Both the position numbers and the translations under genes were made by a program. From Catenulispora acidiphila DSM 44928 (lineage in GTDB: Bacteria; Actinomycetota; Actinomycetes; Streptomycetales; Catenulisporaceae): 64,000 bases of DNA. Positions 4,658 to 26,274 of this stretch are shown in pieces. The stretch covers positions 2,108,001 to 2,172,000 of the forward strand of contig NC_013131.1 in NCBI RefSeq assembly GCF_000024025.1. Reading direction: 5' to 3'. How positions within the stretch are numbered: the first letter of the stretch is position 1; the number at the start of each line of letters is the position of its first letter. The notes beneath the pieces were generated by a model. That model worked only from the letters and a program-made list of their open reading frames with translations, made no database searches and had not been told where the DNA came from.

Positions 4658-5701
4658 TCACTTCAGGAGCGCGACGACCGTCCAGAGCCCCGCCATGGAG
4701 GTGACGGTCGAGAAGATCACGGCATTGCGGGCGAAGACGGTGTCGAGGGCGTATTCGCTCGCGTAGATGAACACGTTCTGGGCGGTGGGGAGGGCGGCGC
4801 AGAGCGTGACGGCGAGGACGTCTCGGCCGGAGAGGTCGAGGGCGTAGCGCGCGAGGAGGTAGGCGAGGACCGGCTGGAGGGCGATCTTGAGGGTCAGGGC
4901 TATCGCGGCTTCGGCGATGCGGGATTTCTCGATGCGTTGCTCGGGGTTGAGGTTTTCGCTGGCTATGGAGCTGTTTTCGGCGCTGGTGTACGCGTCGTTG
5001 CTGGTGTGCCTGCTGGCGTCTCTGCTTCCGTCCTTGGCAGTGCCCTTGCCGCTGCCGCCGTAGAGCGACATGCCGAGCGTGATCAGCGCGACCGGTACCG
5101 CGGCTCCGCCAAGCAGAGTGAGCGCACTGCTCACGTCCGCCGGAACGTGGAAGTGGGTCCCTGACACCAGCGCCCCGAACGCGGACGCGATGATGATCGG
5201 ATTATGGACCGGCAGCAGGGCTATGCCCCGCAGCCGATGCCGTATCCCCGGCGAAGGCCCGTCGCCCAAGCCCATGAGCGTCATCAGGATCGGCGTCACG
5301 AGCACGGTGTTGAACAGGATCACGGTCGACAGGAACGCCGCGTTGCCCAGCACCTGGATCGCCACCGGGATGCCCAGATTCGCGGAGTTGACGTACCCGG
5401 AGGCCATCGCGACCACCGCGCCGTTCGAGACGTCGCGCCCGAACACCCGCGTGCTGATCACCAGCCCGAGCCCGCACGCTGCGAGCGAGCTGACCCCGAA
5501 CGCCACGATCGAGGTGTTCGCCAGCGCGTGCAGATCGGACCGCGCCAGCATGCCGAACAACGACGCCGGCATCGCCACCCGGAACACGAACCGCCCCAGC
5601 ACCGCCTCCACGTCCGCCGACACCGCCCCGACGAGGTTGAAGCGGGCGGCGAGGTAACCGAGGCCGGTGAGGAGCCAGATCGGTATGAAGGCGCTGAGCA
5701 C
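4658..5701 (-). CDS. AEC-family transporter (auxin efflux/malonate carrier family)
   Basis: 347 residues with about ten hydrophobic segments split by a polar, low-complexity loop at about residues 215-265. N-terminal IPIWLLTGLGYLAARF, the central VNSANLGIPVA and the C-terminal LCAALPTAQNVFIYA match the AEC family, which includes malonate carriers of the MdcF type. The gene lies 73 bases after the DUF1116 stop on the same strand, so it may be the third gene of the fdrA-DUF1116 arm. Malonate would be an end product of barbiturate degradation, so a malonate-class carrier here is suggestive, but substrate cannot be read from sequence. Confidence 0.82.
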   Translation of the reverse strand: MLSAFIPIWLLTGLGYLAARFNLVGAVSADVEAVLGRFVFRVAMPASLFGMLARSDLHALANTSIVAFGVSSLAACGLGLVISTRVFGRDVSNGAVVAMASGYVNSANLGIPVAIQVLGNAAFLSTVILFNTVLVTPILMTLMGLGDGPSPGIRHRLRGIALLPVHNPIIIASAFGALVSGTHFHVPADVSSALTLLGGAAVPVALITLGMSLYGGSGKGTAKDGSRDASRHTSNDAYTSAENSSIASENLNPEQRIEKSRIAEAAIALTLKIALQPVLAYLLARYALDLSGRDVLAVTLCAALPTAQNVFIYASEYALDTVFARNAVIFSTVTSMAGLWTVVALLK

Positions 5702-5774
5702 GGCGCCACCGTACCGAGTGCCGGAAGCGGGGGTGCGGGCGGTGCGGTAGGGAGCGCCGAGCGGGTGCGGGGGC

Positions 5775-7298
5775 TTACTGTTCGGGGTTGGTCGGTCGCT
5801 GTGTGGGGTGGTTTTCGGGCGCTAGATCTGCACGCGTCTCATCCGCTCGTGCCAGTTCCGCGAGTGCCGCGAGCGCCTGCGTGAAGCACTCCATCGGCGG
5901 CGTCACCAATCCCGCACCGACCTGCCCGGTCCCCGCCACCCGCCCGGCCATCCCGGTGTTGATCTGCGGCAGCACCCCGGTGCGCACGACCCGCCCGACG
6001 TCGATCCCGGTCGGCGTGCCGCGGAAATCCAGCGCCGGCACCGTGAACGCGGGGTTCTCGGCGAGCGTGATCTCGTACATCAGCCGCGTGGTCGCCACGG
6101 CACTGGCCGCGGTCCCGCCCACGAGCCGGGCGATCGCCGGCGCGGCCGCCATCGCGAACCCGCCGACTCCCGCCGTCTCGGTGATCGCCGAATCGCCGAT
6201 ATCCGGATTGGCGTCCTCCGGCCCGTACCCGGCGAGGAAAAGCCCCTCGGGCGTGTTCGCCGGTCCGGTGAACCACCGATCCCCGGTCCCCGAGGTCTGA
6301 ATCCCGAAATCGGTCCCGTTACGCGCCATCACGGTGACGACCGTGCTCCCCGCGACCCCCGACGCCGCCAACCCCGCGAGCTTGCACGCGGGCATCACCA
6401 GGTTGAGGAAGAAGTGGTCGTTCCCGGAGACGAACCGCACCACGTCGGCCAGCTCCCGGCCGTCCTCCCCGCCCTCGATCAGCGACGGCAGCACCTCGCG
6501 CAGCAGCATGAGCGTCCCGGCCCGATTCCGGTTGTGCCCCTCATCACCCATATGCAGCATCTGCGCGACGATCGCCTTCACATCCACCGCCCCCCGCCGC
6601 CGCACCCCCCGCTGCAGCATCGGTCCGAGCACCCCCGCCATCCACCGCAGCCGCTCGACCACCTCGGGCCCGAACGCGCCGTATCGCAGCACCTTGCCAA
6701 GTCCCTCGTTCAGGCTGCACCACGACGTCCCACCCCCGACCGGATCCCGGACCTCCAGCAACCACATGCTGGGCGACACGACCCCCGCCATCGGTCCGAC
6801 ACCGCCGCGGTGGTGGCAGGGGGCGAGCTCGGGGGCGGTTCTGCTCGTACTACTCGCGCCGCTGCCGCTGCCGCCACTGAACCAGTCCACGGCGTCGTCC
6901 GCCGTCTCCACGAGCCCCTCGAACAGCGCCGCCCCGATCAACGCACCGCGCAACGGCCCTGACGCCCGCTCCCACCCGATCGGCGGCCCGGCATGCAGGA
7001 ACTGCCCCGGCTCCACCCCGAGCACCTCCGACGCCGGCCGCACATCCACCAGCTCGCACCCCGCCGCCAGCATCCGCCGCACCGCCAGCGCGTTCGCCTC
7101 ACCCCGCCGCGCATCGACCGCCACGTCAGCCAGGTCACCCTCGGTCCCAGGCGGCGGCGGACGCCAGTCGACCCTGGTCACCGCCACGCCCTGCTCCACA
7201 AGGTCGTCCGCGAACCCCGCCAAACCAGCCGCGACGACATGCGTGGGCTCAAGCCGCGCCATCGAGACACCAGCCCCGGAACCTTCGAGCAATGACAT
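5775..7298 (-). CDS. DUF1116 protein (YlbE/AllG-like carbamoyltransferase subunit)
   Basis: 507 residues and clearly DUF1116: GGVGPMAGVVSPSMW, SLNEGLGKVLRYGAFG and AQMLHMGDEGHNRN are family hallmarks. In E. coli the homologue YlbE (AllG) works with FdrA (AllF) and YlbF (AllH) as oxamate carbamoyltransferase, which phosphorolyses oxalurate to oxamate and carbamoyl phosphate. It lies 23 bases after the fdrA stop. A polar Ser/Gly-rich insertion (about residues 145-157) is unusual. The start may be ATG 7298, or the second Met at the VSMARLEP segment. No third subunit (DUF2877/AllH) is in the window. Confidence 0.87.
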   Translation of the reverse strand: MSLLEGSGAGVSMARLEPTHVVAAGLAGFADDLVEQGVAVTRVDWRPPPPGTEGDLADVAVDARRGEANALAVRRMLAAGCELVDVRPASEVLGVEPGQFLHAGPPIGWERASGPLRGALIGAALFEGLVETADDAVDWFSGGSGSGASSTSRTAPELAPCHHRGGVGPMAGVVSPSMWLLEVRDPVGGGTSWCSLNEGLGKVLRYGAFGPEVVERLRWMAGVLGPMLQRGVRRRGAVDVKAIVAQMLHMGDEGHNRNRAGTLMLLREVLPSLIEGGEDGRELADVVRFVSGNDHFFLNLVMPACKLAGLAASGVAGSTVVTVMARNGTDFGIQTSGTGDRWFTGPANTPEGLFLAGYGPEDANPDIGDSAITETAGVGGFAMAAAPAIARLVGGTAASAVATTRLMYEITLAENPAFTVPALDFRGTPTGIDVGRVVRTGVLPQINTGMAGRVAGTGQVGAGLVTPPMECFTQALAALAELARADETRADLAPENHPTQRPTNPEQ

Positions 7299-7321
7299 CG
7301 CCGTCCTGACAGTCGTAGTAA

Positions 7322-9211
7322 TCAGCGCACGCCGAACGCGCCGCCACCCACAGCAACCCCACCAAGAGCCAACCGCGCCGCCGCCCCCGCAGCCTCAGCA
7401 TTCGACAAGAAAACCCAAGCCCCCGCCCCAGCCAAAACCCCAGCCTGCCGCCCCAACCCCTGCGGATCCCCAGCCGCACCACACAACGAAACAACCACCG
7501 CCAACCCCGCCCGCACACCCCGCGCAGCACCAATAGCCGCCGCAATCTCCGCCCCCGGATCCGCATGCGCCCCCCGCCCCAGCACCACATCCAGCAGCAC
7601 CACCCCAACCCGCTCATCAGCCGCAGCCTCAGCCACCCCCCGCGACCGCAGCGTGTTGTCGATCATCGGATGCGGCCGCCCCCGCGTGTACGCGTCGTCA
7701 CCGAAGTCGGTGAGATCGAAGGCGAAGGCAGCGGCGGTGGCGGCGGTGGCGTGCGCGTGCGGGGCCGTGCCGAGGCGTTCGTCGGCGGCGTCGGGCGATT
7801 CGGGCGCGCTGAGTTCTGGGTCGTGCAAGTCGGTGTGCGTGGCGGCTGCCGTGGCAGGCGCTTCGTCGGCTGGTCGAGGCGTGTTCTCAGGCGCGTGCAC
7901 GTCGGCGCGCGCGGTCTGGGCAGCGGCGTGCGCGTGCGCGGCCGTGCCGAGGCGTTCGTCGGCGGCGTCGGGCGGTGTTTGCAGTCCTCTGCTTTCCCCC
8001 GCCCCCCGCCCACCCGATCTTTGGTTGTCGATCATCTGTCCGCCCGCGCGCGTCAGCACCACTTCGGCCTCGGCGCGCAGCGTGCCGCCGCTGAACAGCC
8101 CGCGGATCATCGGTGCGCTCGGCGGCATGGGCTCCGTCGTTGCCACCGCTGCCGTCGTCGCGGTGGGCGCCCACTGTGGCCATGGCTGCGGTGCCTGGTG
8201 CCCGAGGGCGGTCAGGATGTGTTCCGCTGACTCGGTCAGGGTGGGGTGGTTCGGGCCTACGAAGGCGAAGTGGACTGGTTTGCCGAGGGTTGCTGCGTGG
8301 GCTTGGATTTTGGCGGCGATGGTGGGGTGGGGTGGTTTGGAGACCACTGTGATGAGTTCTGTTGCGGGGTCGTCGGCCAGTGCTGTCAGGGCGGCGAGGG
8401 TGGAGCGGCCTGCTACCTGCTCGGTCAGGTCGCGGCCGCCTACGCCGAGGCAGTGGTGGATGCCTGTGCCGGCGGCGTCGAGGAGTGCCATCAGTTGCTG
8501 GGCGCCGGTGCCGGAGGCTGCCACGAGGCTGATCGGGCCTGGGCGGACGATGGTGGCGAAGGCCAGGCCGGTTCCGTGGAGGACGACGGTGCCGCAGTCG
8601 GGGCCCATGACCAGGAGGCCGCGTCGTCGTGCCTCTTCTTTGAGGCGTACTTCGTGGTGGATCGGGATGTTATCGCTGAAAATGATCGGTGATGCGCCGT
8701 ATTCCAAGGATTCCATGGCCTCGGCGACGGAGGCAAGGCCGGGGGTGGAAATCAGGGTGATGGGTGCACTCGTTCGGCCTAGTGCGGTGGCCGTGGTGCG
8801 GGGTGCGGGCTGGTCGGGACGGCCCTGGTGCGGATGTCCGGGTGCTGTGATGGAGCCACCGGGCTGGGGGGTGAGGGAGTCGGCCAATGCTGCGAGCGCG
8901 GCGGATTCGGTGGCATCCGCGCTGTCTGAGCCCTCGGCGTCTCCGCCATCGCCCTCGCACGTGAAAGCCACGACCAAGTCGCCCGGCCCGGCATCCGGCA
9001 GCGCCGCGTACCCGAGCTCCGCCAGCAGCGCGACGTTCAGCTCCGTGGCCATCGCCACCAGCACGCGCCCGACGCCCGCGACCCCGGCGACCGCGCGCCC
9101 GGCGAGCATCAGCGTCACGGAGTCGTGGTACTCCCCGCGGCGCACCTCGACGTGCTCGACGTGCTCGACGGCTTCGACCGCTCCGCCTCCCACTGACACC
9201 GACACCGGCAT
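7322..9211 (-). CDS. fdrA: FdrA-like protein (AllF-like carbamoyltransferase subunit)
   Basis: 629 residues, longer than the roughly 555 of E. coli FdrA. The N-terminus has RRGEYHDSVTLM. A succinyl-CoA-synthetase-like part follows (IFSDNIPIHHEV, GLLVMGPDCGT, ASGTGAQQL, CLGVGGRDL). The C-terminal part is RGRPHPMIDNTLR and the segment after it. Between the domains (about residues 400-500) is an Ala/His/Pro-rich linker containing a near-perfect internal duplication. ATG 9211 is preceded by AAAGGA. It heads the leftward arm, divergent from pucR. Its inferred role, with DUF1116, is carbamoyl transfer between an N-carbamoyl amide and phosphate, feeding carbamate kinase. Confidence 0.87.
   Translation of the reverse strand: MPVSVSVGGGAVEAVEHVEHVEVRRGEYHDSVTLMLAGRAVAGVAGVGRVLVAMATELNVALLAELGYAALPDAGPGDLVVAFTCEGDGGDAEGSDSADATESAALAALADSLTPQPGGSITAPGHPHQGRPDQPAPRTTATALGRTSAPITLISTPGLASVAEAMESLEYGASPIIFSDNIPIHHEVRLKEEARRRGLLVMGPDCGTVVLHGTGLAFATIVRPGPISLVAASGTGAQQLMALLDAAGTGIHHCLGVGGRDLTEQVAGRSTLAALTALADDPATELITVVSKPPHPTIAAKIQAHAATLGKPVHFAFVGPNHPTLTESAEHILTALGHQAPQPWPQWAPTATTAAVATTEPMPPSAPMIRGLFSGGTLRAEAEVVLTRAGGQMIDNQRSGGRGAGESRGLQTPPDAADERLGTAAHAHAAAQTARADVHAPENTPRPADEAPATAAATHTDLHDPELSAPESPDAADERLGTAPHAHATAATAAAFAFDLTDFGDDAYTRGRPHPMIDNTLRSRGVAEAAADERVGVVLLDVVLGRGAHADPGAEIAAAIGAARGVRAGLAVVVSLCGAAGDPQGLGRQAGVLAGAGAWVFLSNAEAAGAAARLALGGVAVGGGAFGVR
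7748..7974. repeat. 50-bp direct repeat within fdrA
   Basis: Bases 7748-7797 and 7925-7974 are identical but for one position and are 177 bases apart, so they are in frame. Each encodes a PDAADERLGTA-HAHA segment of the FdrA interdomain linker. This is an in-frame duplication inside low-complexity sequence. Confidence 0.85.
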
Positions 9212-9474
9212 CGATCCTTTCCGCGAGGGCCTGTCGCGACGCTAGACCTCGGGGCTACTGTCCGGGCATGGGCAATCCTGACAAGGACGGCGCCAGAGCT
9301 TCGCAGATATCCACATCGCCAAGCGAGGCGACCGAGGCGAACGGGGGACGGCGGATGGCCGAGCCGACAACGGAGTCGAGCGCGGAGTCGAGCCTGGAGT
9401 CGAGGGCGGAGCCGAGAGCCGAATCGAGGGCGGAGACGATGGCAGCCAAGCACGGAAGCACCGGAGAAACGACG
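9212..9474. promoter_or_regulatory. Divergent promoter region between fdrA and pucR
   Basis: The only stretch between the two arms of the catabolic island, so promoters for both must lie here or just inside the pucR leader. Bases 9355-9450 consist of GAGTCGAG-like repeats that would encode an acidic Glu/Ser-rich extension of PucR if ATG 9268 or 9355 were used. No known operator was recognised. Confidence 0.45.
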
Positions 9475-11268
9475 ATGACCGCCACCCCCATCGGCCTCAC
9501 CGTCACCCAGACCCTGGCCCTCCCCGCCCTGGCCGGCGCGCGCATCGTCGCCGGGCACGCCGGGCACGACCGCGTCGTGGAGCGCGTCAACGTGATGGAG
9601 GTCCCGGACATCCTCCCGTGGGTCAAGCCCAAGGAGCTCCTGCTCACCACCGGCTACCCGCTGCGCCACTCGCCCTCGCCGCTCACCGACCTGATCGGCG
9701 ACCTGGACCGCGCCGGGCTGTCCGCCATCGCCATCAAGCCGCACCGCTACCTCGGCGACCTGCCGCCCGAGCTCCTCGCCGCCGCCGACGCGCTGGGCTT
9801 CCCGGTGATCGAGCTGCCCGAGGGTGTGGCCTTCGACGACATCCTCACCGACGTCCTGTCCGACATCCTCGACCGCCAGTCCGCGGTCCTGGCGCGCGTT
9901 GACCACGTCCACCGCTCGCTGGCGCAGATCGCGCTGGAGGGCGGCGGCCTGGCCGAGCTCACCGCCGAGCTGGCGCACATCCTCGGCGGCCCGGTGCTGG
10001 TCACGACGCCGGATGGCCGCGTCCTGGCCGAGTGCGGCGCCGAGACCGTCTGCCACCTGCCCTGTTTCGACGCCGCCCCCGAAGACGCCGACCACCGCCT
10101 GCGCACCGAGGCCGAGCAGCCCGGCCTGACCACCCACCACGGCGCGCAGCACGCGCTGGTCCCGATCGTCGCCGGCCGCGTCGACCACGGCCGCCTGGTC
10201 GCCTTCGCCGGCCGCCGCGCCTTCGACGCCGCCGACGTCGCCGCCCTCGAACGCGCCGCCACGGTCGCCGCCCTCGCGGTGCTCAAGCAGCTCGCGGTCG
10301 CCGCGGTCGAGGACAAGTACCGCGCCGACTTCCTCAGGGACCTGCTGACCGGTCGCCTGGACGACCCGCAGTCAGCCGCCGCCCACGCCGCCACCCTCGG
10401 CTGGGACATCGGACCGGGACACGCCCCAGGACACAGCAACGGCGGAATCACGAGAACCGCTATAGGCGCGGGCAACGGTTCGCCCACCGGCGCCAACACC
10501 CGCGCCGACGCGACCGTCACCGCCACGTCCGCCGCCACCCGCCCCACCCCCAAACCCCCCACCCCCGACTCCCGCCACCTCGTGGTCCTCGTCGCCGAAC
10601 TCGACCCCGGCCAGTCCGTCCTCCCCGCCTCCCAGCACGCCCTGCGCCCCGCCCGCGAACGCTTCGCCGCCGCCTGGCAGACCGTCGTCGCCGCCCGCGA
10701 CCGCACCAACCCCGTGGCGGGCTTCAACCAGGAAGTCGTCGTCGTCCTCAAGACCGGCGACGACCCCGACCCCCAGGTCAGAAGCCTGATCGCGGAAGTC
10801 TCCGGCACCGGTGGAGGCGGACGCCGCACCTTCTCCACGGGCGTCTCCCGCCGCGTCGCCACCGTCGCCGACCTCCCCGCCGCCTACGAGGAGGCCCGCC
10901 GCGCGGTCCGCATGGGACGCCGCCTGAACGGTCCCGGCTCCGTCGCCCACTTCGACGCCCTCGGCGTCTACCGCCTGCTCTCCCTGGTCCCCGACCCCGA
11001 CGAGCTGCGCGACTTCGCCCGCCAGACGCTCAAGGGCCTCGCCGCCGACGGCGATCCCGACGCCGAGGACCTGCGCATGACCCTGGAAGTCCTGCTCGAC
11101 ACCAACCTGAACGTCGCCGAAGCCGCCCGCCGCCTGCATTTCCACTACAACACCCTGCGATACCGCATAGGCAAGATCGAACGCCTCGTCGGCCCGTTCA
11201 TGGAGCGTCCGGACCTCCGGCTGGACCTCTCGGTAGCTCTCCGTATCTTGCACATGAGGGGACTGTGA
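9475..11268 (+). CDS. pucR: PucR-family transcriptional regulator
   Basis: About 597 residues from ATG 9475. The N-terminal PucR domain begins at once (LTVTQTLALPALAGARIVAG, then VMEVPDILPWVKPKELLLTTGYPLR). A middle region with the CdaR/GGDEF-like part is interrupted by a Thr/Ala/Pro-rich linker (about 320-365). The C-terminal helix-turn-helix contains LNVAEAARRLHFHYNTLRYR. PucR proteins control purine catabolism in Bacillus, and relatives control other nitrogen-compound pathways. I prefer 9475 because GGAG lies 8 bases upstream and the domain starts there; ATG 9268, 9355 or 9439 would add an acidic repetitive leader. It is the likely regulator of both arms. Confidence 0.88.
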   Translation: MTATPIGLTVTQTLALPALAGARIVAGHAGHDRVVERVNVMEVPDILPWVKPKELLLTTGYPLRHSPSPLTDLIGDLDRAGLSAIAIKPHRYLGDLPPELLAAADALGFPVIELPEGVAFDDILTDVLSDILDRQSAVLARVDHVHRSLAQIALEGGGLAELTAELAHILGGPVLVTTPDGRVLAECGAETVCHLPCFDAAPEDADHRLRTEAEQPGLTTHHGAQHALVPIVAGRVDHGRLVAFAGRRAFDAADVAALERAATVAALAVLKQLAVAAVEDKYRADFLRDLLTGRLDDPQSAAAHAATLGWDIGPGHAPGHSNGGITRTAIGAGNGSPTGANTRADATVTATSAATRPTPKPPTPDSRHLVVLVAELDPGQSVLPASQHALRPARERFAAAWQTVVAARDRTNPVAGFNQEVVVVLKTGDDPDPQVRSLIAEVSGTGGGGRRTFSTGVSRRVATVADLPAAYEEARRAVRMGRRLNGPGSVAHFDALGVYRLLSLVPDPDELRDFARQTLKGLAADGDPDAEDLRMTLEVLLDTNLNVAEAARRLHFHYNTLRYRIGKIERLVGPFMERPDLRLDLSVALRILHMRGL

Positions 11269-11348
11269 CGCGGCAACCTCGCCACCTGCGAAATCAGTAA
11301 CCCTCCAGTACTTGTGACGCCCGTCACACCGTCACTACAGTCCGCTCC

Positions 11349-12812
11349 ATGACATTCGGCTGGCGGGTCGCATACGAAGGCAAGACTCCACCACCGGGCT
11401 CGGTCGTCCGTCCCGACGAGCGGCTGTCCTGGCCGCGCACCGTCGGGCTGGGCGCGCAGCACGTCGTCGCGATGTTCGGCGCGACGTTCGTCTTCCCCCT
11501 GGTCATGGGCCTGAACCCGCAGCTGGCGATCATGATGAGCGGGGTCGCCACGCTCTGCTTCCTGCTGATCGTCAAGAACAAGGTCCCCAGCTACCTGGGC
11601 ACCTCGGCGAGCTTCGTCAGCGGGGTGGCGGCGATCCGCGCGCAGGGCGGCGACAACCAGGACGTCACCGGCGCGATCCTGATCGCCGGCGGTGTCCTGC
11701 TGGTGGTCGGGGTCCTGGTCCACCTCCTGGGCGCGCAGGTGATCCACGCGGTCCTGCCCCCGGTCGTGACCGGCGCCGTGGTGTTGCTGATCGGCTTCAA
11801 CCTCGCGCCGGTCGTGGCGGACACCTACTGGCCGCAGGATCAGTGGATCGCGCTGATCACCATGCTGGCGGCGATCGGGATCATGGTCGGGGTCCGCGGG
11901 TTCATCGGCCGGATAGCGATCTTCGTCGCCCTGGTGTTCGGCTACGTGCTGTCCTGGATCGCCGATCAGATCTTCGGCAGGATCACCTCCTACGATCCCG
12001 GCGCCGGGCACGACACCACGCACTGGCGCGTCAACTTCGACCAGCTCAAGGCCGCCAAGTGGGTCGGCTTCCCGAACAAGACCACCGGCAGCGGCGCGCA
12101 CCAGGTCGCCGGCTGGCACTTCCCGGAGTTCAAGTGGGCCTTCATCCTGCTGGTGCTCCCGGCGGTGATCGCGCTGGTCGCCGAGAACACCGGGCACGTC
12201 AAGGCGGTCGCCGAGATGACCGGCGACGACCTGGACCCGTACATGGGCCGCGCCATCGCCGCCGACGGCTTCGGCACGGTCGTGGCCAGCACCTTCGGCG
12301 GCTCCCCGACCACCACCTACGCCGAGAACATCGGCGTCATGGCCGCCACCCGCGTCTACTCCACGGCGGCCTACTACGTCGCGGCGCTCGTGGCGATCCT
12401 GTTCGGCCTCTCACCCAAGTTCGGCGCCCTGGTCGCGGCCACCCCCGGCGGCGTCCTCGGCGGCATCACCGTGGTGCTCTACGGCATGATCGGCCTGCTC
12501 GGCGTGAAGATCTGGACCGAGAACCGGGTGGACTTCGGCAACCCGCTGAACCTGGTCCCGATCGCCGCCGGCGTCATCATCGGCATCGGCAACACCAGCC
12601 TGAAGTTCACCGACAACTTCTCGCTGTCCGGGATCGCGCTCGGCACGATCGTGACCATCGTGTGCTACCACGGCGCCCGGCTCATCGCCCCGGCGTACCT
12701 GAAGACCGCAGGCTTCGGCACGGGCTCCGGTACTGCCGCCGGCCCAGCCGCCGACGCGGACGGCCCACCGGAAGCATCGGGACCCCCGGGCGGGGTACAA
12801 GGCCAGGAGTAG
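11349..12812 (+). CDS. NCS2-family nucleobase permease, uracil (UraA/RutG) type
   Basis: 487 residues with the 14-segment NCS2 pattern. SWPRTVGLGAQHVVAMFGATF near the N-terminus and VPSYLGTSASFV are typical of UraA/RutG permeases. The two Glu-containing substrate motifs are VAENTGHVKAVAEM and TTYAENIGVMAATRVYS. Glu in YAENIG is the uracil-permease form; xanthine/urate NCS2 carriers usually have Gln-Asn there. That points to a pyrimidine substrate for the island. The C-terminus is a Gly/Ala/Pro-rich tail. It follows pucR by 80 bases and precedes the hydroxylase genes by 134 bases. Confidence 0.88.
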   Translation: MTFGWRVAYEGKTPPPGSVVRPDERLSWPRTVGLGAQHVVAMFGATFVFPLVMGLNPQLAIMMSGVATLCFLLIVKNKVPSYLGTSASFVSGVAAIRAQGGDNQDVTGAILIAGGVLLVVGVLVHLLGAQVIHAVLPPVVTGAVVLLIGFNLAPVVADTYWPQDQWIALITMLAAIGIMVGVRGFIGRIAIFVALVFGYVLSWIADQIFGRITSYDPGAGHDTTHWRVNFDQLKAAKWVGFPNKTTGSGAHQVAGWHFPEFKWAFILLVLPAVIALVAENTGHVKAVAEMTGDDLDPYMGRAIAADGFGTVVASTFGGSPTTTYAENIGVMAATRVYSTAAYYVAALVAILFGLSPKFGALVAATPGGVLGGITVVLYGMIGLLGVKIWTENRVDFGNPLNLVPIAAGVIIGIGNTSLKFTDNFSLSGIALGTIVTIVCYHGARLIAPAYLKTAGFGTGSGTAAGPAADADGPPEASGPPGGVQGQE

Positions 12813-17596: not shown

Positions 17597-18493
17597 ATGC
17601 GCCCCTTGACCGCAGCCGCCCTCCAACTCGCCCCTCACCCCGGCCCGCTCACCGCCAACAGCGTCGGGGAGAACCTCAACCGCGCCGTCGAGCTGATCGA
17701 GCGCTGCGTCGGGGAGACCGGCGCCGACCTGCTCGTGCTGCCCGAAGCCGTCACCACCGGCTTCACGCCCGGCATCCCCGTGGAGGAACTCTGGGACCTG
17801 ATGAGCCCGGTCCCCGGCCCGACCACCGAGCCGGTGCAGCAAGCGGCGCAGCGCCTCGGCGTCCATGTCGTGCACTGCACCTACGAGCGCGGCGAGGAGC
17901 GCGGCGTGGTCTACAACTCCGCGATGCTCATCGGACCGACCGGCGAGGTGCTCGGGGTCTACCGCAAGACGCACCTGTTCCCCGGCGAGACGCAGTGGGT
18001 CACGCCCGGCGATTCGGTCAGCGTCGTCGACACCGAACTCGGGCGCATCGGGCTCACCGTCTGCTTCGACGGCGACTTCCCCGAACTGTTCCGCATCCAG
18101 GCGGTGCGCGGCGCGGAGATCATCTGCCGGCCCTCGGCGCTGTTGCGGTCCGCCGACATCTGGGAGCTGACCACGCGGGCCCGCGCCTACGACAACCACG
18201 TCTACGTCATCGGCGCCAACGCCACCGGCACCGATCCGGCCGGCGTGCACTACTTCGGCAACTCGCTGATCGTCACGCCGATCGCCGAGGTGGTGGCGCG
18301 CGCCGCCTCGCACGAGGGCTGGGCCGCCGCACGGTTGGACCCGGCCGACGCCATGCGGACCCTGACTCCCGGCTCGGACCGCGCGCAGACCTTCGACCAC
18401 CTCGCCGAGCGCAATCTGGGTCTGCTCGACACCTACCAGAAGGACCTGATCGGCCCGGCGCAGACCCCGTTCCGGCTCGGGGGTGGTGCATGA
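17597..18493 (+). CDS. Carbon-nitrogen hydrolase (nitrilase superfamily amidase)
   Basis: 298 residues with the complete Glu-Lys-Cys triad: LPEAVTTGF (Glu50), VYRKTHLF (Lys124) and LTVCFDGDFPE (Cys156). The superfamily hydrolyses amides, N-carbamoyl groups or nitriles in the cytoplasm. In this cluster the most useful reaction would be removal of the last amide (malonamate to malonate and ammonia) or hydrolysis of an N-carbamoyl intermediate; this is inference. ATG 17597 is the first in-frame Met. The stop overlaps hyuA by 4 bases (ATGA), so it is co-translated with the hydantoinase pair. Confidence 0.9.
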   Translation: MRPLTAAALQLAPHPGPLTANSVGENLNRAVELIERCVGETGADLLVLPEAVTTGFTPGIPVEELWDLMSPVPGPTTEPVQQAAQRLGVHVVHCTYERGEERGVVYNSAMLIGPTGEVLGVYRKTHLFPGETQWVTPGDSVSVVDTELGRIGLTVCFDGDFPELFRIQAVRGAEIICRPSALLRSADIWELTTRARAYDNHVYVIGANATGTDPAGVHYFGNSLIVTPIAEVVARAASHEGWAAARLDPADAMRTLTPGSDRAQTFDHLAERNLGLLDTYQKDLIGPAQTPFRLGGGA

Positions 18494-20562
18494 TCCGGAT
18501 CGGCATCGACACCGGCGGGACGTTCACCGACGTCGTGGCGATCGACGAGGACAACGGCCGCGCGGTCGCCGGCAAGGTGCCCTCGACGCCCGCCGATCCC
18601 TCGCGGGGGTTCCTCGCCGCCGTCCGCAGGGCCCTGACTCTCCTGGACGCCGTCCCGCACGACATCGCCGTCGTCAGCCACGGCACCACCGTCGCCACCA
18701 ACCAGCTCCTGCAGGGCAAGGTCGAAAGCCTCGGCTTCATCACCACGGCAGGGTTCGAACACCTGCTGGAGATCGCCCGCCAGTCCGTCCCCGACGGCTA
18801 CGGCAACAGCTACTTCTGGGTCAAGCCGCCGCGCATCGTCCCAGCCGACCTGGTCCGCGGTGTCGGCGGGCGGCTGGACGCCGACGGCGAGGAGGTCCGC
18901 GCCTTCAACACCGCCGATGCCAAGGAGGCGGCACGCTTTCTGAAGGCGGCGGGAGTCCGCTCGATAGGCGTCTCCTTCCTGCACTCCTACGCCAACGCAG
19001 AACACGAACAAGCGATGCGCGACATTCTCGAGGCGGAGTTCCCCGAGGCCGCCGTGTCGATCTCCTCTGACGTCCTGCCCGAGTACCGCGAGTACGAGCG
19101 GTCGATGACCACGCTCGTCGACGCCGCTGTGAAACCGACCGTCGCCGGCTACGTCGGCCGCATCCGGGAACGCCTGGATGCCTTGACCGGCAACGCTCGC
19201 AGCGTGCCTTTCTACGTCATGAAGTCCAACGGCGGCGTGCTGTCGGCGGAGGAAGTCGTCCGCCAACCGGTCACCACCGTCCTGTCCGGTCCGGCCGCCG
19301 GAGCCCTCGGCGCCGCGCTCATCTCCGCGCACGCCGGCTTCGACCGCATCCTGACCCTCGACGGCGGCGGCACCTCGACCGACGTCGCGGTCGTCCTGCA
19401 CGGCGAACCGGCCGTCACCACCGAGGGCGGCGTCGGCGGCTATCCCTCGAAGATCCCGATGATCGACGTCGTGACCGTCGGCGCCGGCGGCGGCTCGGTC
19501 GCCTGGCTGGCGCCGGAGGGCACGCTCAAAGTCGGACCGCGCTCCGCCGGCGCCGACCCCGGCCCGGTCTGCTACGGACGCGGCGGCACCGAGGTCACCG
19601 TCACCGACGCGCACCTGGTTCTGGGACGCATCCCCGACGGCCTGCTCGGCGGCGAGGTGCCGCTGGACCGGGACGCCGCGCGCGCCGGGCTCGCCGTACT
19701 CGGCGGCAAGCTCGGTCTGAGCCAGGAGGCGGTCGCCGCCGGAATCCTGGAGATCTCGGCGTGGAACCAAGCCAATGCCCTGCGACAGGTGACGATCAAG
19801 CGCGGGCTGGACGTGCGCGACTTCCAACTGACCGCGTTCGGCGGCTCCGGCGCGTTGTTGGCTTGTCGTCTTGTCGACATCCTCGGCGTGCGCGGGGTGC
19901 TGGTCCCGCCCGATCCCGGCAACGTCTCGGCGTTCGGCCTGCTCACCGTGGACGTGCGCAACGACTACGTCCAGACCTACGTCCGCCGCCACGACCGCGT
20001 CGACGTCGGGCGAGTCAGGGCCCTGTTCGCCGAGCTGCAAGCCTCCGCGGCGAAAGCCCTGCACGCCGAAGGGTTCGCCGAGCCGGAGCAAGTCTTCAAG
20101 CGCAGCGCCGACCTCCGCTACTTCGGGCAGGCCTACGAGGTGCGCGTCCCCGTGCCCGAGGAAGACTTCGGTCCGCAAGCCGCCGAAGCCGTCGTCGAAG
20201 CCTTCCACGCGGCTCACGAGGGCATGTATGGGTACTCATTCCGCGGCGACGAGCGCCAGTCCGCGGAATGGGTCAACCTGCGCGTCACCGGCATCGGCCC
20301 GATCCGCCGCCCGGAGATCGCCGAAGTCGCCGTGCGAAGCGGCGGGGAACCCGAACCGTCTGGCGTCCGCCCGGTCTGGTTCGACGAGACCCCCGTCGAA
20401 GCCGCGATCCATCATCGCAGAGCCCTCATGCACGGCGACCGCGTCCGCGGCCCGGCGATCATCGAGGAATATGGCTCGACCGTCCCGGTGCACCCCGGCT
20501 TCGTCTGCGCCGTGGACCGCTGGGGGAATCTGCTGCTGACGCAGGAGGAACGCCCGTGCTGA
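18490..20562 (+). CDS. hyuA: Hydantoinase/oxoprolinase family protein, subunit A
   Basis: 690 residues of the HyuA family (N-methylhydantoinase, acetone carboxylase and 5-oxoprolinase relatives), which use ATP to activate a cyclic amide or similar carbonyl. Nucleotide-binding motifs of the actin-like fold are visible: RIGIDTGGTFTDVV at the start, VSHGTTVATNQLL, LDGGGTSTDVAVV and VGAGGGSVAWL. It begins at ATG 18490 overlapping the amidase stop and ends overlapping the hyuB start by 7 bases. Its partner is the next gene. The exact substrate is unknown; a ring-opening or amide-cleaving step in N-heterocycle breakdown fits the location. Confidence 0.9.
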   Translation: MIRIGIDTGGTFTDVVAIDEDNGRAVAGKVPSTPADPSRGFLAAVRRALTLLDAVPHDIAVVSHGTTVATNQLLQGKVESLGFITTAGFEHLLEIARQSVPDGYGNSYFWVKPPRIVPADLVRGVGGRLDADGEEVRAFNTADAKEAARFLKAAGVRSIGVSFLHSYANAEHEQAMRDILEAEFPEAAVSISSDVLPEYREYERSMTTLVDAAVKPTVAGYVGRIRERLDALTGNARSVPFYVMKSNGGVLSAEEVVRQPVTTVLSGPAAGALGAALISAHAGFDRILTLDGGGTSTDVAVVLHGEPAVTTEGGVGGYPSKIPMIDVVTVGAGGGSVAWLAPEGTLKVGPRSAGADPGPVCYGRGGTEVTVTDAHLVLGRIPDGLLGGEVPLDRDAARAGLAVLGGKLGLSQEAVAAGILEISAWNQANALRQVTIKRGLDVRDFQLTAFGGSGALLACRLVDILGVRGVLVPPDPGNVSAFGLLTVDVRNDYVQTYVRRHDRVDVGRVRALFAELQASAAKALHAEGFAEPEQVFKRSADLRYFGQAYEVRVPVPEEDFGPQAAEAVVEAFHAAHEGMYGYSFRGDERQSAEWVNLRVTGIGPIRRPEIAEVAVRSGGEPEPSGVRPVWFDETPVEAAIHHRRALMHGDRVRGPAIIEEYGSTVPVHPGFVCAVDRWGNLLLTQEERPC

Positions 20563-22397
20563 ACCCGGTGCTGCTGGAGATCGTCGAGGGCACGTTGGCC
20601 TCCGTCGAACGCGAGGTCGAGACCGCGATCGCCCGGACCTCGCGCTCCCCGATGATCCGCGACGCCCACGACTTCCGCGTCGGCATCCACGACGCCCGGC
20701 TGCGCAAGCTCACCGGCCGGTCGTACTCCGCGCTGGTGCATCCGGTGGTCCGCGACTACCCGGTGGACCAGATGCGGCCCGGCGACGTCTTCTTCCACAA
20801 CGACGTCTACCTCTCCGAAGGCGGCATCGGACACCTTCCCGACCTGTGCGTCACCGTGCCGGTCTTCCACGACGGCGCGGTGGCCGCCTTCGTCCAGGCC
20901 TTCGGACACCACGACGACATCGGCGGCGCGTGCCCCGGATCGATGCCCTCCGGCGCGCGCAGCGTCTTCGAAGAAGGCTTGATGGTCCCGCCGATCCGGC
21001 TGTGGGACGCCGGCGTGCCGAACGAGGCGGCGCTGAAGATCATGACGCGCAACTCCCGGATGCCGGACTCGCTGGCCGCAGACCTGGACGCGGAGTGCTC
21101 GGCGTGCCTGATGGGAGCGCGGCGCCTCGGGGAGGTCTTCGCGCGCTACGGCCGCGAGGCCGTTGAGGAGTGCTTCGACGCCATCATCGACCTGACCACC
21201 GAGACCTTCCGCCGCGAGATCCTGGCGAAGATCCCCGAGGGCTCCTACACCTGGGAGGACTACGCCGAGCACGACGGCGTCGACCCGCCGAAGCTGCACC
21301 GCCAGCGCATCACGCTGACCAAGCTCGCCGAGGACGGCGGCCGGCTGATCATCGACTTCGACGGCACCGGACCGCAGGCGAAGGGACCGATCAACCACTG
21401 CGGCGACTACGCGGACGGCAACTTCCTGAAGAAGTGGCTCGCCCCGGTGCTGCGCAACCTCGCCGACAGCCCGGAGCGGATGGCCGAGCTCGACGTGAAC
21501 GAGGGCGTCGTCCCGCTGATCGAGATGCGCTTCCCGCCGCCTGGAACGCTGCTCACACCGGTGTTCCCGGCGCCGACGAACGCCCGCACCTTCGTGATCC
21601 TGCGGCTGCTCGGCGTGCTGTCCGGGGCGCTGGCCAAAGCCGTGGACGGCCGCATGCCCGCCGACCAGGAGACCATCCGCTACACCGGCGTCTACGGCAC
21701 CGACGCCGACGGGCTGCCGTACCTGATGCGCGAAGTCCTCGGCGGCGGCTCCGGCGGGCGCTATTACGCCGACGGCGAGGACACGATCCACGTCGTGCCG
21801 GACTCGCGGAACATCCCCGTGGAGTTCGCCGAGGCGCGCTGGCCGTTCCGCGTGGAGAAACTGGGATTGGCGGTGGACTCCGGCGGAGCGGGGCGCTTCC
21901 GCGGCGGACTCGGCTATGAGAAGCAGATCAGGATGCTGCGAGACGCCGATTTCATGAGCATCGCCGACCGCTCGATCCTGGGCTGCTGGGGCGTGAAGGG
22001 CGGCCGGGCGGGCCGGCCGTTCGAGGTGGTGATCGATCCGGGCGGTCCCGCGGAGCGGAAGGTCGACGCGCTGGCGGACGCCGAACCGGTGTACGCCGGG
22101 GAGATCATCCGGATCCGGACGACCGGCGGCGGCGGGTGGGGCGACCCGTTCGAGCGGCCGATGGCGGACATCATCACTGATGTGCGGTGGGGCAAGGTCT
22201 CGATCGAGGGCGCGCGGCGGGACTACGGCGTGGTGCTGACGCCGGTCGGTACCGGCTATGAGGTCGATGCCGCGGCGACCGGGACACTGCGCGAGGAGAT
22301 GTGGATGTTCCGTGGCCACGAGGCGTTCTTCGACCGGGGTCCGGGCTTCGCGGCGATGGCGCACGGAGCGACATCAGCCTATTGCGATTGGCAGTGA
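20556..22397 (+). CDS. hyuB: Hydantoinase B/oxoprolinase family protein
   Basis: 613 residues from GTG 20556, where the family's opening NPVLLEIVEGTLASVERE begins. Conserved segments include FFHNDVYLSEGGIGHLPD, HHDDIGGACPGSMP, DFDGTGPQAKGPINHC and the late GRRGG-like Gly-rich region SGGAGRFRGGLGYEKQI. It pairs with HyuA as the second subunit of an ATP-dependent amide-cleaving enzyme. GTG is favoured because GGAGGAA lies just upstream and the start sits inside the hyuA stop overlap. Carbamate kinase begins one base after its stop. Confidence 0.9.
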   Translation: MLNPVLLEIVEGTLASVEREVETAIARTSRSPMIRDAHDFRVGIHDARLRKLTGRSYSALVHPVVRDYPVDQMRPGDVFFHNDVYLSEGGIGHLPDLCVTVPVFHDGAVAAFVQAFGHHDDIGGACPGSMPSGARSVFEEGLMVPPIRLWDAGVPNEAALKIMTRNSRMPDSLAADLDAECSACLMGARRLGEVFARYGREAVEECFDAIIDLTTETFRREILAKIPEGSYTWEDYAEHDGVDPPKLHRQRITLTKLAEDGGRLIIDFDGTGPQAKGPINHCGDYADGNFLKKWLAPVLRNLADSPERMAELDVNEGVVPLIEMRFPPPGTLLTPVFPAPTNARTFVILRLLGVLSGALAKAVDGRMPADQETIRYTGVYGTDADGLPYLMREVLGGGSGGRYYADGEDTIHVVPDSRNIPVEFAEARWPFRVEKLGLAVDSGGAGRFRGGLGYEKQIRMLRDADFMSIADRSILGCWGVKGGRAGRPFEVVIDPGGPAERKVDALADAEPVYAGEIIRIRTTGGGGWGDPFERPMADIITDVRWGKVSIEGARRDYGVVLTPVGTGYEVDAAATGTLREEMWMFRGHEAFFDRGPGFAAMAHGATSAYCDWQ

Positions 22398-22398
22398 C

Positions 22399-23349
22399 AT
22401 GCGGACCCTGATCGCGTTGGGCGGCAACGCCATGACCGCCTCGGACGGCCGCGCACGCCCCGAGGACCAGATCGCGGCGGTCGGCGTGGCGATGGAGGCG
22501 GTCGCCGATCTGGTGGCGGCCGGCGTCGAGGTGGTGCTGACCCACGGCAACGGACCGCAGGTCGGCAACCTCCTGGTGAAGAACGAGCTCGCCGCGCACG
22601 TCGTGCCGCCAGTCCCGCTGGACTGGTGCGGCGCGCAGACCCAGGGGACGCTCGGCTTCGTCATTGTCAGCGCGCTGGAGCGGGCTCTGGCGGCGCGCGG
22701 CGTCGCCAAGCCGGTCGCCGCCGTCGTGACCCGCACGCTGGTCGACGCGAACGACCGCGGTTTCACCCACCCGACCAAGCCGATCGGCCGGTACCTGCCG
22801 AAGGAGCAGGCGGTCGCGATGATCGCGCACGGGCAGACCTGGGAGGACCGCGGCGAGCGCGGCTGGCGCCGGGTCGTCGCCTCGCCGGAACCGCTCGAAG
22901 TGCTCGACGCCGCAGCGGCGAAGACGCTTGTCGAAGCCGGGTACGTCGTCGTCGCCTGCGGTGGCGGCGGGATCCCGATGGTGCACGATCTGGGGTCGGC
23001 GAAGGCTCTTCGCGGCGTCGAAGCCGTCATCGACAAGGACCTCTCAGCGGTCCTGCTGGCCCGGGCCGTCGGCGCGGACCACCTCGTCATCGCCACCGAC
23101 GTGGACCACATGTTCGTCCACTTCGGTACTCCGGACGTCAGGGCCCTGGATCGCATCGACGTCGCCGACCTGCGCGCGCATCTGGCAGCAGGGGAGTTCG
23201 GCGGCGGGAGCATGGCGCCGAAGGCGGAGGCGGCGTGCCGGTTCGTGGAGGGCGGAGGGCGGCGCGCCGTCGTCACCGCGCTGGGAAGCATTCGTGAAGC
23301 TGTTCTCGGGGAAGCGGGAACCGTAGTGGAAGGAGCCACAAGTGCCTGA
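22399..23349 (+). CDS. arcC: Carbamate kinase
   Basis: 316 residues, the usual size. Amino-acid-kinase motifs: LIALGGNAM at the N-terminus, [13 protein letters not shown], the CK-specific [28 protein letters not shown] and [11 protein letters not shown]. It converts carbamoyl phosphate and ADP to carbamate and ATP. No arginine deiminase or ornithine carbamoyltransferase gene is nearby, so the carbamoyl phosphate must come from another reaction; the FdrA/DUF1116 pair at the other end of the cluster is the obvious source. ATG 22399 follows the hyuB stop by one base, and its stop overlaps the next gene by 8 bases. Confidence 0.93.
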
Positions 23350-24448
23350 GGCGATCGAGGTCCGGAAGGTGCCGCTGCGACACGTCAGCGACGCGTCGGG
23401 GTTGGCCGAGCTGATCACCGCCGGGGTGGTGGAGGCCGACCGGGTGGTGGCGGTCGTCGGCAAGACCGAGGGCAACGGCGGCGTCAACGACTACACGCGC
23501 ATCATCGCCGACCGCGCGTTCCGCGAGACGCTGATGCGGCTCGGGACGCGCAGCGAGGCGGAGGTCGCCGAGGTGCCGATCGTGTGGTCCGGCGGGACCG
23601 ACGGGGTGCTCTCGCCGCACGCGACCATCTTCGCCACCACCGACGCAGAGCCTTGCGACGAGCCGCGGCTGACCGTCGGCTTCGCGATGAGCGAGCCGCT
23701 GCTGCCCGAGGAGATCGGCCGCTCGGCGATGATCACGAAGGTCGCCGACGCGGTCCACGAGGCGATGAAGCGCGCCGGCATCGACGACCCGGCGGACGTG
23801 CACTACGTGCAGACCAAGACCCCGCTGCTGACCATCCAGACCATCCGCGAGGCCAAGGCGCGCGGCGAGACGGTCTGGACCGAGCACACCCACGAGTCGA
23901 TGGACCTGTCCAACGGCTGCACCGCCCTCGGGATCGCGGTGGCGCTCGGCGAGGTCGAGATGCCCTCCGACGAAGCTGTGCTGCATGACAGGGCCCTGTA
24001 TTCCTCGGTGGCGTCCTGCTCCTCGGGTGTGGAGCTGGACCGTGCGCAGGTCGTCGTGGTCGGCAACGCCTCCGGCGTCGGCGGCCGGTACCGCATCGGC
24101 CACGCGGTGATGCGGGACGCCCTGGACGCCGAGGGCATCTGGGACGCGATCCGCGCGGCCGGGCTGGAGCTGCCGGAGCGGCCGCGGTCCTCGGACCTGG
24201 ACGGTCGGCTGGTGAACGTGTTCCTCAAGTGCGAGGCCAGCACCGACGGCATGGTCCGCGGCCGGCGCAACGCCATGCTGGACGACTCCGACGTGCACTG
24301 GCACCGGCAGATCAAGGCCTGCGTCGGCGGCGTCGCGGCGTCGGTGACCGGCGACCCGGCGGTCTTCGTCTCGGTCTCGGCCGCGCATCAGGGCCCTGAC
24401 GGCGGCGGCCCGGTGGCGGCGATCGTGGAGGTGGGCCCTGGTGCGTGA
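23342..24448 (+). CDS. Ring-opening amidohydrolase, barbiturase/cyanuric acid hydrolase family
   Basis: 368 residues, almost the length of Rhodococcus barbiturase. The family has three similar repeats, each supplying a Ser-Lys pair. Candidates are [11 protein letters not shown] (Lys41) and [12 protein letters not shown] (Ser83); VQTKTPLL and [21 protein letters not shown] and [13 protein letters not shown]. The enzyme would hydrolyse barbiturate to ureidomalonate (or cyanurate to carboxybiuret). The pyrimidine-type permease and hydroxylase favour barbiturate, and no biuret or allophanate hydrolase gene is present. GTG 23342 overlaps arcC by 8 bases and the stop overlaps xdhC by 8 bases. Confidence 0.9.
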
Positions 24449-25553
24449 CCTGCTGCCGACCCTGCTCGCCTGGCGTGCCGCCGGCGAGCCGTTCGTCCTG
24501 GCCACGGTCGTCGCCGCGGACGGCGGCGGGCCGCGCGAACCCGGCGCGGCGATGGCGGTTCGGATGGCCGGCGGCGTGCCGGGCGACGTGGTCGGCAGCG
24601 TGTCAGGAGGCTGCGTCGAGGCCTCGGTGATCGAGGCGGCGGCCGACGTCGTCGCCGCCGGCCGCCCCCGGCTGGAGACGTACGGCTTGGAGGACTCCGA
24701 GGCGGTCGGTCTGACCTGCGGCGGCACCCTGTCGGTGTTCATCGAGCCCGGCGCCGCCGCGTCCGCACACCTGGACCGGGTCCAGGAGGCGGTGGCGCGC
24801 GGCTCCGGTGCGGCGATGGTGACGGTGGTCGACGGCCCGCCGGAGCTGATCGGACTGCACCGCGGCGACCTGCTGCGCGCCAACGGCTACGCGGCCCTGG
24901 CCGACGCGGTCGCCCGGGACGCAGACGCGCTGGTCGACCTGGGAGAACCGGCACGGCGCCGGTACCGGCTGGACGGCTGCCCCGAACCGGCGGACGGACC
25001 GTGGGGCGCACCCGACACCGTGACAGTGTTCTTCAACGTCATCGGCGCCCCGCCCCGGCTGATCGTCCTCGGCGCGCTGGACTACGCGGCGTCGCTGGCG
25101 AGCATCGGCCGCTTCCTGGGCTACTGGGTGACGGTCTGCGACGCGCGGCCGGTGTTCGCCACAGCCGAGCGCTTCCCCGACGCGCACGACGTGGTCGTCG
25201 CCTGGCCGCATCAGTACCTGGCCGCGACCTCGATCGACGAGCGGACCGCGATCTGCGTGCTGACCCACGACCCGAAGTTCGACGTGCCCGCGCTGGAGAT
25301 CGCGCTGCGCTCGCCGGCGCTGTACGTCGGAGCGATGGGGTCGCGGCGGACGTGCGAGGACCGCGAGCGGAGGCTGCGCGAGGCGGGTGTCACAGAGGAC
25401 GAACTCGCCCGGCTCGCCGCGCCGATCGGACTGGACCTCGGTGCCTCGACACCTGCCGAGACCGCGGTGTCGATCGCCGCGGAGCTGGTCGCCTTGCGGC
25501 GGCAGGGGAGTGGCGAGCCGTTGCGACGGACCAGAGGGAAGATTCATCGATGA
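24441..25553 (+). CDS. xdhC: XdhC/CoxI-family maturation protein
   Basis: 370 residues. N-terminal XdhC motif [20 protein letters not shown] and [16 protein letters not shown], then a Rossmann-like C-terminal domain with [16 protein letters not shown] and [16 protein letters not shown]. XdhC proteins insert the sulfurated molybdenum cofactor into xanthine-dehydrogenase-family enzymes. It starts at GTG 24441 inside the barbiturase gene, so enzyme and maturation factor are made together. This supports the hydroxylase being part of the same pathway as the barbiturase. Confidence 0.9.
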
Positions 25554-25671
25554 GCAGTGGGTCTGATGATCGCAAAGGGCTGAGTCAGCTGACTGGGCCG
25601 CATCGCGGACCGAGGTCGGACGAGATGCGGACCAGCGCCATGCGATCGCAGAGATCTGAGATCATCGTCCG

Positions 25672-26274
25672 ATGAGTGCTGCCTCCCGCAGACGCCCATC
25701 CGGCGCGGCCCAGCCCCCGGTCGTCGGCGTCGTCCTCGCCGCCGGCGCCGCCACCCGCTTCGGCGGTGGCAAAGCCGTCGCGCGCTTCCAGGGCGAACGG
25801 CTCGTGGACCGCGCCGTCGCGACGCTGACCGCCGGCGGCTGCGATCGCGTGCTGGTCGTCGTCGGCGCGCTGGACGTCGGCGCCGTGCACCACGCGATCC
25901 TCGTCCTGAACCCGGACTGGACCACCGGCATGGGCAGCTCGCTGCACGCCGGGCTGTTCGCGGCGCGCGACGCCGCAGCGGTCGTGGTGACCCTCGTCGA
26001 CCAGCCGCTCATCGGCGCCGCGGCGGTGAAGCGGCTCATCGCGGCTTGGCGCGACGGCGCTCCGATCGCCGTCGCGACGTATGACGGACGCCGCGCGCAT
26101 CCGGTCCTGTTCGGGCGCGAAGCCGTCGCCGACGTGCTGCCCACGCTCACCGGCGACGCCGGAGCCCGCGCGTTCCTCGCCGAGCGCACGGACGTCGTCG
26201 CCGTGGACTGCACCGACACCGGCCGTCCCGACGACGTCGACACCGTCGAAGCGCTGCGCCGCCTCAGCCCGTAG
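25672..26274 (+). CDS. mocA: MocA-like molybdenum cofactor cytidylyltransferase
   Basis: 200 residues of the MobA-like NTP transferase fold: VVLAAGAATRFGGGKAVARF at the N-terminus, NPDWTTGMGSSLHAGL, LVDQPLIGA and RRAHPVLFGREAV. MocA attaches CMP to molybdopterin, the form used by many bacterial xanthine-dehydrogenase-family enzymes of the CoxL class. Its position 118 bases after xdhC makes it the probable last gene of the island. It ends convergently with the DUF1707 gene, the two overlapping by 11 bases. A role in unrelated NTP transfer is less likely in this context. Confidence 0.87.
   Translation: MSAASRRRPSGAAQPPVVGVVLAAGAATRFGGGKAVARFQGERLVDRAVATLTAGGCDRVLVVVGALDVGAVHHAILVLNPDWTTGMGSSLHAGLFAARDAAAVVVTLVDQPLIGAAAVKRLIAAWRDGAPIAVATYDGRRAHPVLFGREAVADVLPTLTGDAGARAFLAERTDVVAVDCTDTGRPDDVDTVEALRRLSP

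Follow-up and report, generated by a model that had tools for sequence, protein, structure and literature searches.

AllF, AllG and carbamate kinase in a barbiturase gene cluster of Catenulispora acidiphila: a predicted carbamoyl phosphate-yielding branch of oxidative pyrimidine degradation

The oxidative pyrimidine pathway of Rhodococcus erythropolis comprises uracil/thymine dehydrogenase, barbiturase and ureidomalonase (as cited in PMC3758960 and PMC4051656). In Escherichia coli, the carbamoyltransferase AllFGH interconverts oxalurate plus phosphate and oxamate plus carbamoyl phosphate. Growing cells converted 19.5 mM allantoin into 17.7 mM oxamate, which shows that phosphorolysis does proceed in vivo (PMC11326118). 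A literature search yielded no paper connecting FdrA/AllFGH with barbiturase. Here, we describe a gene cluster of Catenulispora acidiphila DSM 44928 in which both are encoded. It occupies positions 4658-26274 of the window, a stretch of 64,000 nucleotides (contig NC_013131.1, 2,108,001 to 2,172,000) within the complete 10.47 Mb genome. An earlier reading of this sequence (the original prediction) had proposed that its FdrA/DUF1116 pair, AllF and AllG, splits ureidomalonate to supply carbamate kinase. The comparative analysis makes it quite probable that AllF and AllG, together with AllH in other genera, form a ureidomalonate carbamoyltransferase that feeds carbamate kinase. It also appears likely, though with less assurance, that an ATP-conserving ureidomalonate branch of the AllFGH family is standard in most actinomycetes with barbiturase, that ureidomalonase is mainly confined to Rhodococcus and that the Catenulispora enzyme has been reduced to AllF and AllG.

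In the predicted pathway, an NCS2 permease would import uracil, perhaps also thymine, a molybdenum enzyme would hydroxylate uracil to barbiturate, and barbiturase would open the ring to yield ureidomalonate (N-carbamoylmalonamate). AllF and AllG, in other genera with AllH, would convert ureidomalonate and phosphate into malonamate and carbamoyl phosphate, from which carbamate kinase would generate ATP, CO2 and NH3. A nitrilase-type amidase, elsewhere an amidase-signature enzyme, would hydrolyse malonamate to malonate and NH3. From there, malonate could enter central metabolism through a CoA-transferase and a carboxyltransferase-like protein, both of which are encoded in many genera. All reactions after barbiturase as well as the ATP gain are predictions from sequence. 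Oxalurate and ureidomalonate are both N-acylureas of the type H2N-CO-NH-CO-R, with R being COOH in the former and CH2COOH in the latter. Known enzyme families would act here in a new pathway and on a new predicted substrate.

The ring opener (23342-24448, plus strand) shares 82% identity with R. erythropolis barbiturase, whose structure has been solved (PDB 5hwe, 645 bits), whereas solved cyanuric acid hydrolases reach at most 331 bits. Peat and colleagues found that five positions separate barbiturase from cyanuric acid hydrolase activity: Barbiturases have Asn, His, Lys, Val and Ser or Ala at AtzD positions 195, 321, 325, 345 and 346 (PMC3758960). The window protein shows the barbiturase state at all five (N191, H321, K325, V345, S346). 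The same holds for 110 of 111 other extracted relatives, a tally that is partly biased because the peptide used in the named scan contains two of the five positions; 29 relatives from the class-sample profile search are free of this bias, yet they are the top scorers of that search. The remaining one, a Streptomyces-type homologue (L013), carries RTRGG, the cyanuric acid hydrolase state. NCBIfam NF052395 (cyanuric acid amidohydrolase) matches the window protein with 488 bits at a cut-off of 360, a label that was rejected in view of the signature and the PDB scores. Judged by these sequence features, we are dealing with a genuine barbiturase (Group VI, AtzD/Bar family), as originally predicted. 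Since NF052395 lies far above its cut-off on a barbiturase, public databases probably list barbiturases under the wrong name.

The genes for uptake and hydroxylation point in the same direction. The NCS2 permease (11349-12812, plus strand; PF00860) scores 188 bits with the uracil permease UraA and 54 with a uric acid-xanthine permease in PDB; the corresponding profiles give 343 bits for RutG and 161 for xanthine permease. The molybdenum hydroxylase is encoded on the plus strand by genes for the FAD subunit (12947-13795; PF00941 147 bits, PF03450), the [2Fe-2S] subunit (13792-14310; PF01799, PF00111; GTG start inferred) and the large subunit (14303-16717; PF02738, PF20256). The nearest solved relative of the large subunit is quinoline 2-oxidoreductase (435 bits), compared to about 156 bits for xanthine dehydrogenase, and we infer that it is a uracil (perhaps thymine) dehydrogenase. 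Taken together, the barbiturase signature, the uracil-type permease and a molybdenum subunit that is not of the xanthine dehydrogenase type give good support to pyrimidine breakdown via barbiturate. The gene for the PucR-type transcriptional regulator (9268-11268, plus strand; PF07905 121 bits, PF13556 68 bits) is kept between allH/allF and the permease gene in many genera.

The original prediction suggested searching genomes for co-occurrence of barbiturase, FdrA and carbamate kinase, and the outcome of this search is in its favour. In an evenly drawn class sample of 297 genomes, in which the barbiturase family was scored as PF09663, the AtzD/barbiturase family was found in 68, AllG in 73 and both in 62. 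AllG is thus present in 62 of 68 PF09663 genomes versus 11 of 229 others (odds ratio 205, p=4e-45), and, counted by genus, in 30/36 with and 8/79 without PF09663 (p=1e-14). Six PF09663 genomes have no AllG: Four of them score in the range of the cyanuric-acid-hydrolase-like protein, a fifth has a completeness of 72%, and G535 is a genuine exception. When both genes are located on one contig, they are at most 50 kb apart in 29/36 cases and 90-130 kb or 1.7 Mb apart in others. As they co-occur even when unlinked, a single travelling block does not explain the association. Whole-genome searches detected AllG in 44 of 50 named barbiturase genomes. Carbamate kinase and barbiturase-type AllG were found together (41/43 versus 0/7, p=3.6e-7), and the carbamate kinase gene is situated directly upstream of the barbiturase gene in 67 of 80 named loci.

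The same gene set is present in about a fifth of the sampled actinomycete species. A shared gene order was seen in several families, with genomes of Nocardioides, Aeromicrobium, Mumia, Janibacter and Phytoactinopolyspora as well as of the Pseudonocardiaceae type: allG-allF-allH are divergent from the pucR arm, which reads pucR-permease-FAD-FeS-Mo-coxG-amidase-hyuA-hyuB-(class III CoA-transferase, carboxyltransferase-like)-carbamate kinase-barbiturase. In Phytoactinopolyspora halotolerans, genes other than carbamate kinase are located upstream of barbiturase (L036:6900-10000).

Rhodococcus, from which the urea-yielding route is known, shows a different arrangement. Whole-genome searches revealed neither a barbiturase-type AllG nor a true carbamate kinase there. 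Instead, an amidase-signature gene follows the barbiturase gene after 0.1-0.3 kb in all seven Rhodococcus loci (77-100% identity to the R. erythropolis protein). This Rhodococcus-type amidase adjoins barbiturase only in these seven loci and was found beside carbamate kinase in 0 of 67 loci, and in the window barbiturase is followed by xdhC instead. The Rhodococcus amidase (L068:11233-12726 in R. erythropolis) is a candidate for ureidomalonase. In Haloechinothrix halophila, too, barbiturase is followed by an amidase gene, and neither AllG nor carbamate kinase is encoded. Urease is encoded in 5/5 Rhodococcus genomes. It is found in 6 of 34 genomes with barbiturase-linked AllG compared to 5 of 7 lacking AllG. 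Owing to co-occurrence, conserved gene order, a separate AllG clade (see below), mutual exclusion with the Rhodococcus amidase and the urease pattern, the proposed action of AllF/AllG and carbamate kinase at the ureidomalonate step has gained strong comparative support.

The kinase (22399-23349, plus strand) scores 245 bits with PDB 1e19 versus about 30 bits with acetylglutamate kinases. It exceeds the cut-off of NF009007 (315 bits) and is slightly below that of TIGR00746 (330 bits, cut-off 358). On these scores it is a carbamate kinase of the ArcC/AllK family and not another amino acid kinase. The predicted conservation of ATP agrees with the location of its gene next to that of barbiturase; the net gain is uncertain, since hyuA and hyuB, which had been overlooked, encode relatives of ATP-dependent enzymes. 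HyuA (18490-20562, plus strand; PF01968 295 bits; PDB N-methylhydantoinase 455 bits) is of the ATP-dependent hydantoinase/oxoprolinase type, and HyuB (20556-22397, plus strand) matches PF02538 with 459 bits. Both genes (18490-22397) are part of the coupled operon, between amidase and carbamate kinase, and belong to most barbiturase clusters. HyuAB relatives hydrolyse ATP, and a net energy gain is less certain than the carbamoyltransferase step. It can only be guessed that HyuAB opens 5-methylbarbiturate derived from thymine, which could spare the main route. It is conceivable, if rather unlikely, that carbamoyl phosphate mainly serves nitrogen supply or biosynthesis of arginine and pyrimidines, with carbamate kinase as a vent and nil net ATP, above all if each ring costs HyuAB one ATP. 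Such a role could let the cells regain ring nitrogen without urease, an enzyme absent from most AllG-bearing genomes, and the ATP dependence of HyuAB relatives would fit, too. However, both the allFGHK and the arginine deiminase route use carbamate kinase for catabolism, and the gene order couples this enzyme to barbiturase.

AllG (5775-7298, minus strand) matches PF06545 with 313 bits and PDB 3clq with 347 bits. AllF (7322-9211, minus strand; PF00549), which contains low-complexity inserts, has its best PDB match in E. coli FdrA (3dmy, 212 bits). An ordinary oxalurate (oxamate) carbamoyltransferase for purines, merely sharing a regulator or neighbourhood with pyrimidine genes, would be in line with E. 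coli AllFGH, the one characterised representative, which acts on oxalurate (PMC11326118), and with the naming of PucR regulators after purine catabolism. Furthermore, all shared invariant residues are kept: The window AllG retains 70/70 residues invariant across E. coli-type and barbiturase-type AllG, and AllF 61/61 common to both clades. Nevertheless, we regard an oxalurate enzyme as improbable. The conserved cluster has no allantoinase, allantoate or ureidoglycolate enzymes, its permease and molybdenum hydroxylase are not of the xanthine type, and AllG is associated with barbiturase far above background. In addition, the AllGs of barbiturase genomes group together in a single clade (support 100/100) apart from those of E. 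coli-type allFGHK operons, and the window AllG does not group with the latter. Three genomes (G305, G308, G338; Pseudonocardia acaciae, Nocardioides soli, Humibacillus) contain both AllG types, the second within a separate E. coli-type allFGHK operon. Pseudonocardiaceae-type AllGs had been placed outside the clade by FastTree (weak support, 47), a placement rejected after a careful tree joined them at 100/100; their loci carry the same cluster as the rest of the clade. Several AllG columns differ consistently between the clades. In most of them, a bulkier residue of the E. coli type has a smaller counterpart in the barbiturase type (Met/Ala, Trp/Leu, Phe/Leu, His/Gly), and in addition Arg is replaced by Gln. 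These differences would suit a site remodelled for a longer acceptor; the clade-specific positions are 50, 67, 272, 293 and 390 of the trimmed protein. An AlphaFold model of AllG (11 rows) was not used (mean predicted local confidence, pLDDT, 54.9).

Further AllG lineages (L253, L254, L244, L245, L255) occur in other surroundings, and the L254 AllG adjoins a different FAD/FeS/Mo hydroxylase set. This suggests that oxalurate is not the only substrate of the AllFGH family.

The position of hyuAB inside the operon, HyuA being close to N-methylhydantoinase, allows a different assignment: AllFG and carbamate kinase might serve a ureido acid made by HyuAB (opened 5-methylbarbiturate or hydantoin), while the amidase, usually nearby, hydrolyses ureidomalonate to urea. 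This has little probability. R. erythropolis has HyuA encoded after its hydroxylase genes, yet neither AllG nor carbamate kinase, so HyuAB does not predict AllFG. Moreover, carbamate kinase most consistently touches barbiturase and not HyuAB, and urease is missing from most AllG-bearing genomes. A cyanuric acid hydrolase, and with it a route of triazine rather than pyrimidine breakdown, as the NF052395 match would have it, is very improbable in view of the barbiturase-type specificity positions, the far higher score with R. erythropolis barbiturase and a cluster in which neither biuret nor allophanate hydrolase was found.

A few observations weigh against a ureidomalonate carbamoyltransferase that conserves ATP. 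While AllF and AllG are present as originally predicted, the prediction did not discuss that the third subunit is missing: A profile search for AllH (PF11392) found no match in the window or in the whole genome, and AllH is absent from 9/9 Catenulispora genomes tested (this one and eight further). The E. coli enzyme needs AllH for near-full activity: When allH was left out, allFG brought back no more than about 7% of oxamate formation (PMC11326118). HyuAB, if acting in the same route, would spend ATP and, if acting on the same molecule, cancel the gain. P. halotolerans has AllG, AllH and barbiturase, but no recognisable carbamate kinase. C. acidiphila itself has urease, being one of the six of 34, and the exclusion and urease contrasts mainly reflect one evolutionary event (a single Rhodococcus clade) plus Haloechinothrix.

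Neither a fusion of AllH to AllF, AllG or PucR nor a divergent copy was detected in the window with a profile of actinomycete AllHs, which had no significant match in the genome either, a genome search that, unlike the one with PF11392, lacked a positive control of its own. AllH is present in 34 of 41 barbiturase genomes tested. In other genera, allH is located between allF and pucR, where Catenulispora has a 57 bp gap (9211-9268); therefore, allH has probably been lost in Catenulispora. Within this genus, AllG and AllF are under purifying selection with ratios of nonsynonymous to synonymous substitutions (dN/dS) of 0.12-0.18 and 0.25-0.39, respectively, which argues against decay. Either the Catenulispora enzyme can do without a third subunit or it performs the step inefficiently.

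On the malonate side, the slot between coxG and hyuA is occupied here by a nitrilase-superfamily amidase (17597-18493, plus strand; PF00795 171 bits), a candidate malonamate amidase, and in other genera by an amidase-signature enzyme. Two unrelated folds can share this slot presumably because both perform one simple amide hydrolysis, e.g. of malonamate to malonate. Genes for a class III CoA-transferase and a carboxyltransferase-like protein recur in both AllG-type and Rhodococcus-type clusters (L014:13813-14982; L093:18084-19520). The former resembles dicarboxylate CoA-transferases, the latter acetyl-CoA carboxylase and, weakly, malonate decarboxylase subunits. These likenesses fit malonate as product and make the two proteins candidates for a malonate CoA-transferase and a malonyl-CoA decarboxylase. 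In C. acidiphila, the best CoA-transferase homologues (43-44% identity) are encoded far from the cluster.

All genes named by the original prediction are intact and, as stated there, mostly overlapping; its list was correct as far as it went, but omitted HyuA, HyuB and a transporter of the auxin efflux carrier-like (AEC) family. Between the hydroxylase genes and xdhC, most neighbours on the plus strand share 4-8 bases or directly adjoin each other (FAD/FeS/Mo/CoxG, nitrilase/HyuA, HyuA/HyuB, HyuB/carbamate kinase, carbamate kinase/barbiturase, barbiturase/XdhC), while allG-allF are divergent from the remaining pathway genes. The other members on the plus strand encode a CoxG-like protein (16714-17385; PF06240), an XdhC-type maturation factor (24441-25553; PF13478, PF02625) and a MocA-like nucleotidyltransferase (25672-26274; PF12804 132 bits), presumably for molybdopterin cytosine dinucleotide. 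The AEC-family gene (4658-5701, minus strand; PF03547 81 bits) encodes a candidate organic-acid carrier, possibly for malonate or a related acid. It adjoins allG in the other Catenulispora loci in which that side is covered (76-77% identity) and was not seen beside allG in loci of other genera. Downstream of the cluster, an ADP-ribosylglycohydrolase family protein without relation to the pathway is encoded (28653-29588).

If AllF and AllG act on ureidomalonate, the AllFGH carbamoyltransferase family, to which genes were assigned only recently, gains a new substrate. The textbook end of the oxidative pyrimidine route would then be carbamoyl phosphate and ATP, and not urea, in most actinomycetes having the route. 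Furthermore, genes are suggested for the molybdenum uracil dehydrogenase and the Rhodococcus ureidomalonase, and the database name of barbiturases would be corrected. The occurrence of PF09663 in 68 of 297 class members, compared to the 3% of genomes quoted previously (PMC3758960), suggests that the route is not rare.

Four described systems resemble the one proposed here. With AllFGH/AllK of the E. coli allantoin pathway (PMC11326118, PMC9843812), it shares the subunit families, the N-acylurea type of substrate and carbamate kinase as partner. In contrast to E. coli, the cluster is tied to barbiturase and uracil-type transport and hydroxylation, AllG belongs to a separate clade, AllH is absent in Catenulispora, and the predicted substrate is one methylene longer. 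With R. erythropolis, it has an orthologous barbiturase (82%) and related permease, molybdenum hydroxylase, CoxG and HyuA genes in common. However, where R. erythropolis has an amidase beside barbiturase, urease and neither AllG nor carbamate kinase, the window has AllFG and carbamate kinase at the corresponding step. Ureidoglycine carbamoyltransferase and carbamate kinase of Rubrobacter xylanophilus provide a parallel for phosphorolysis of a nucleobase-derived ureido compound, although that enzyme belongs to a different, aspartate transcarbamoylase (ATCase)-like family and has a different substrate, allantoate (PMC4016543). Finally, comammox bacteria and archaeal nitrifiers carry allFGHK beside biuret/triuret genes and so show AllFGH and carbamate kinase in association with other N-acylureas; these loci differ in that no barbiturase/AtzD was found there, and the authors assign oxalurate as substrate (PMC12625717).

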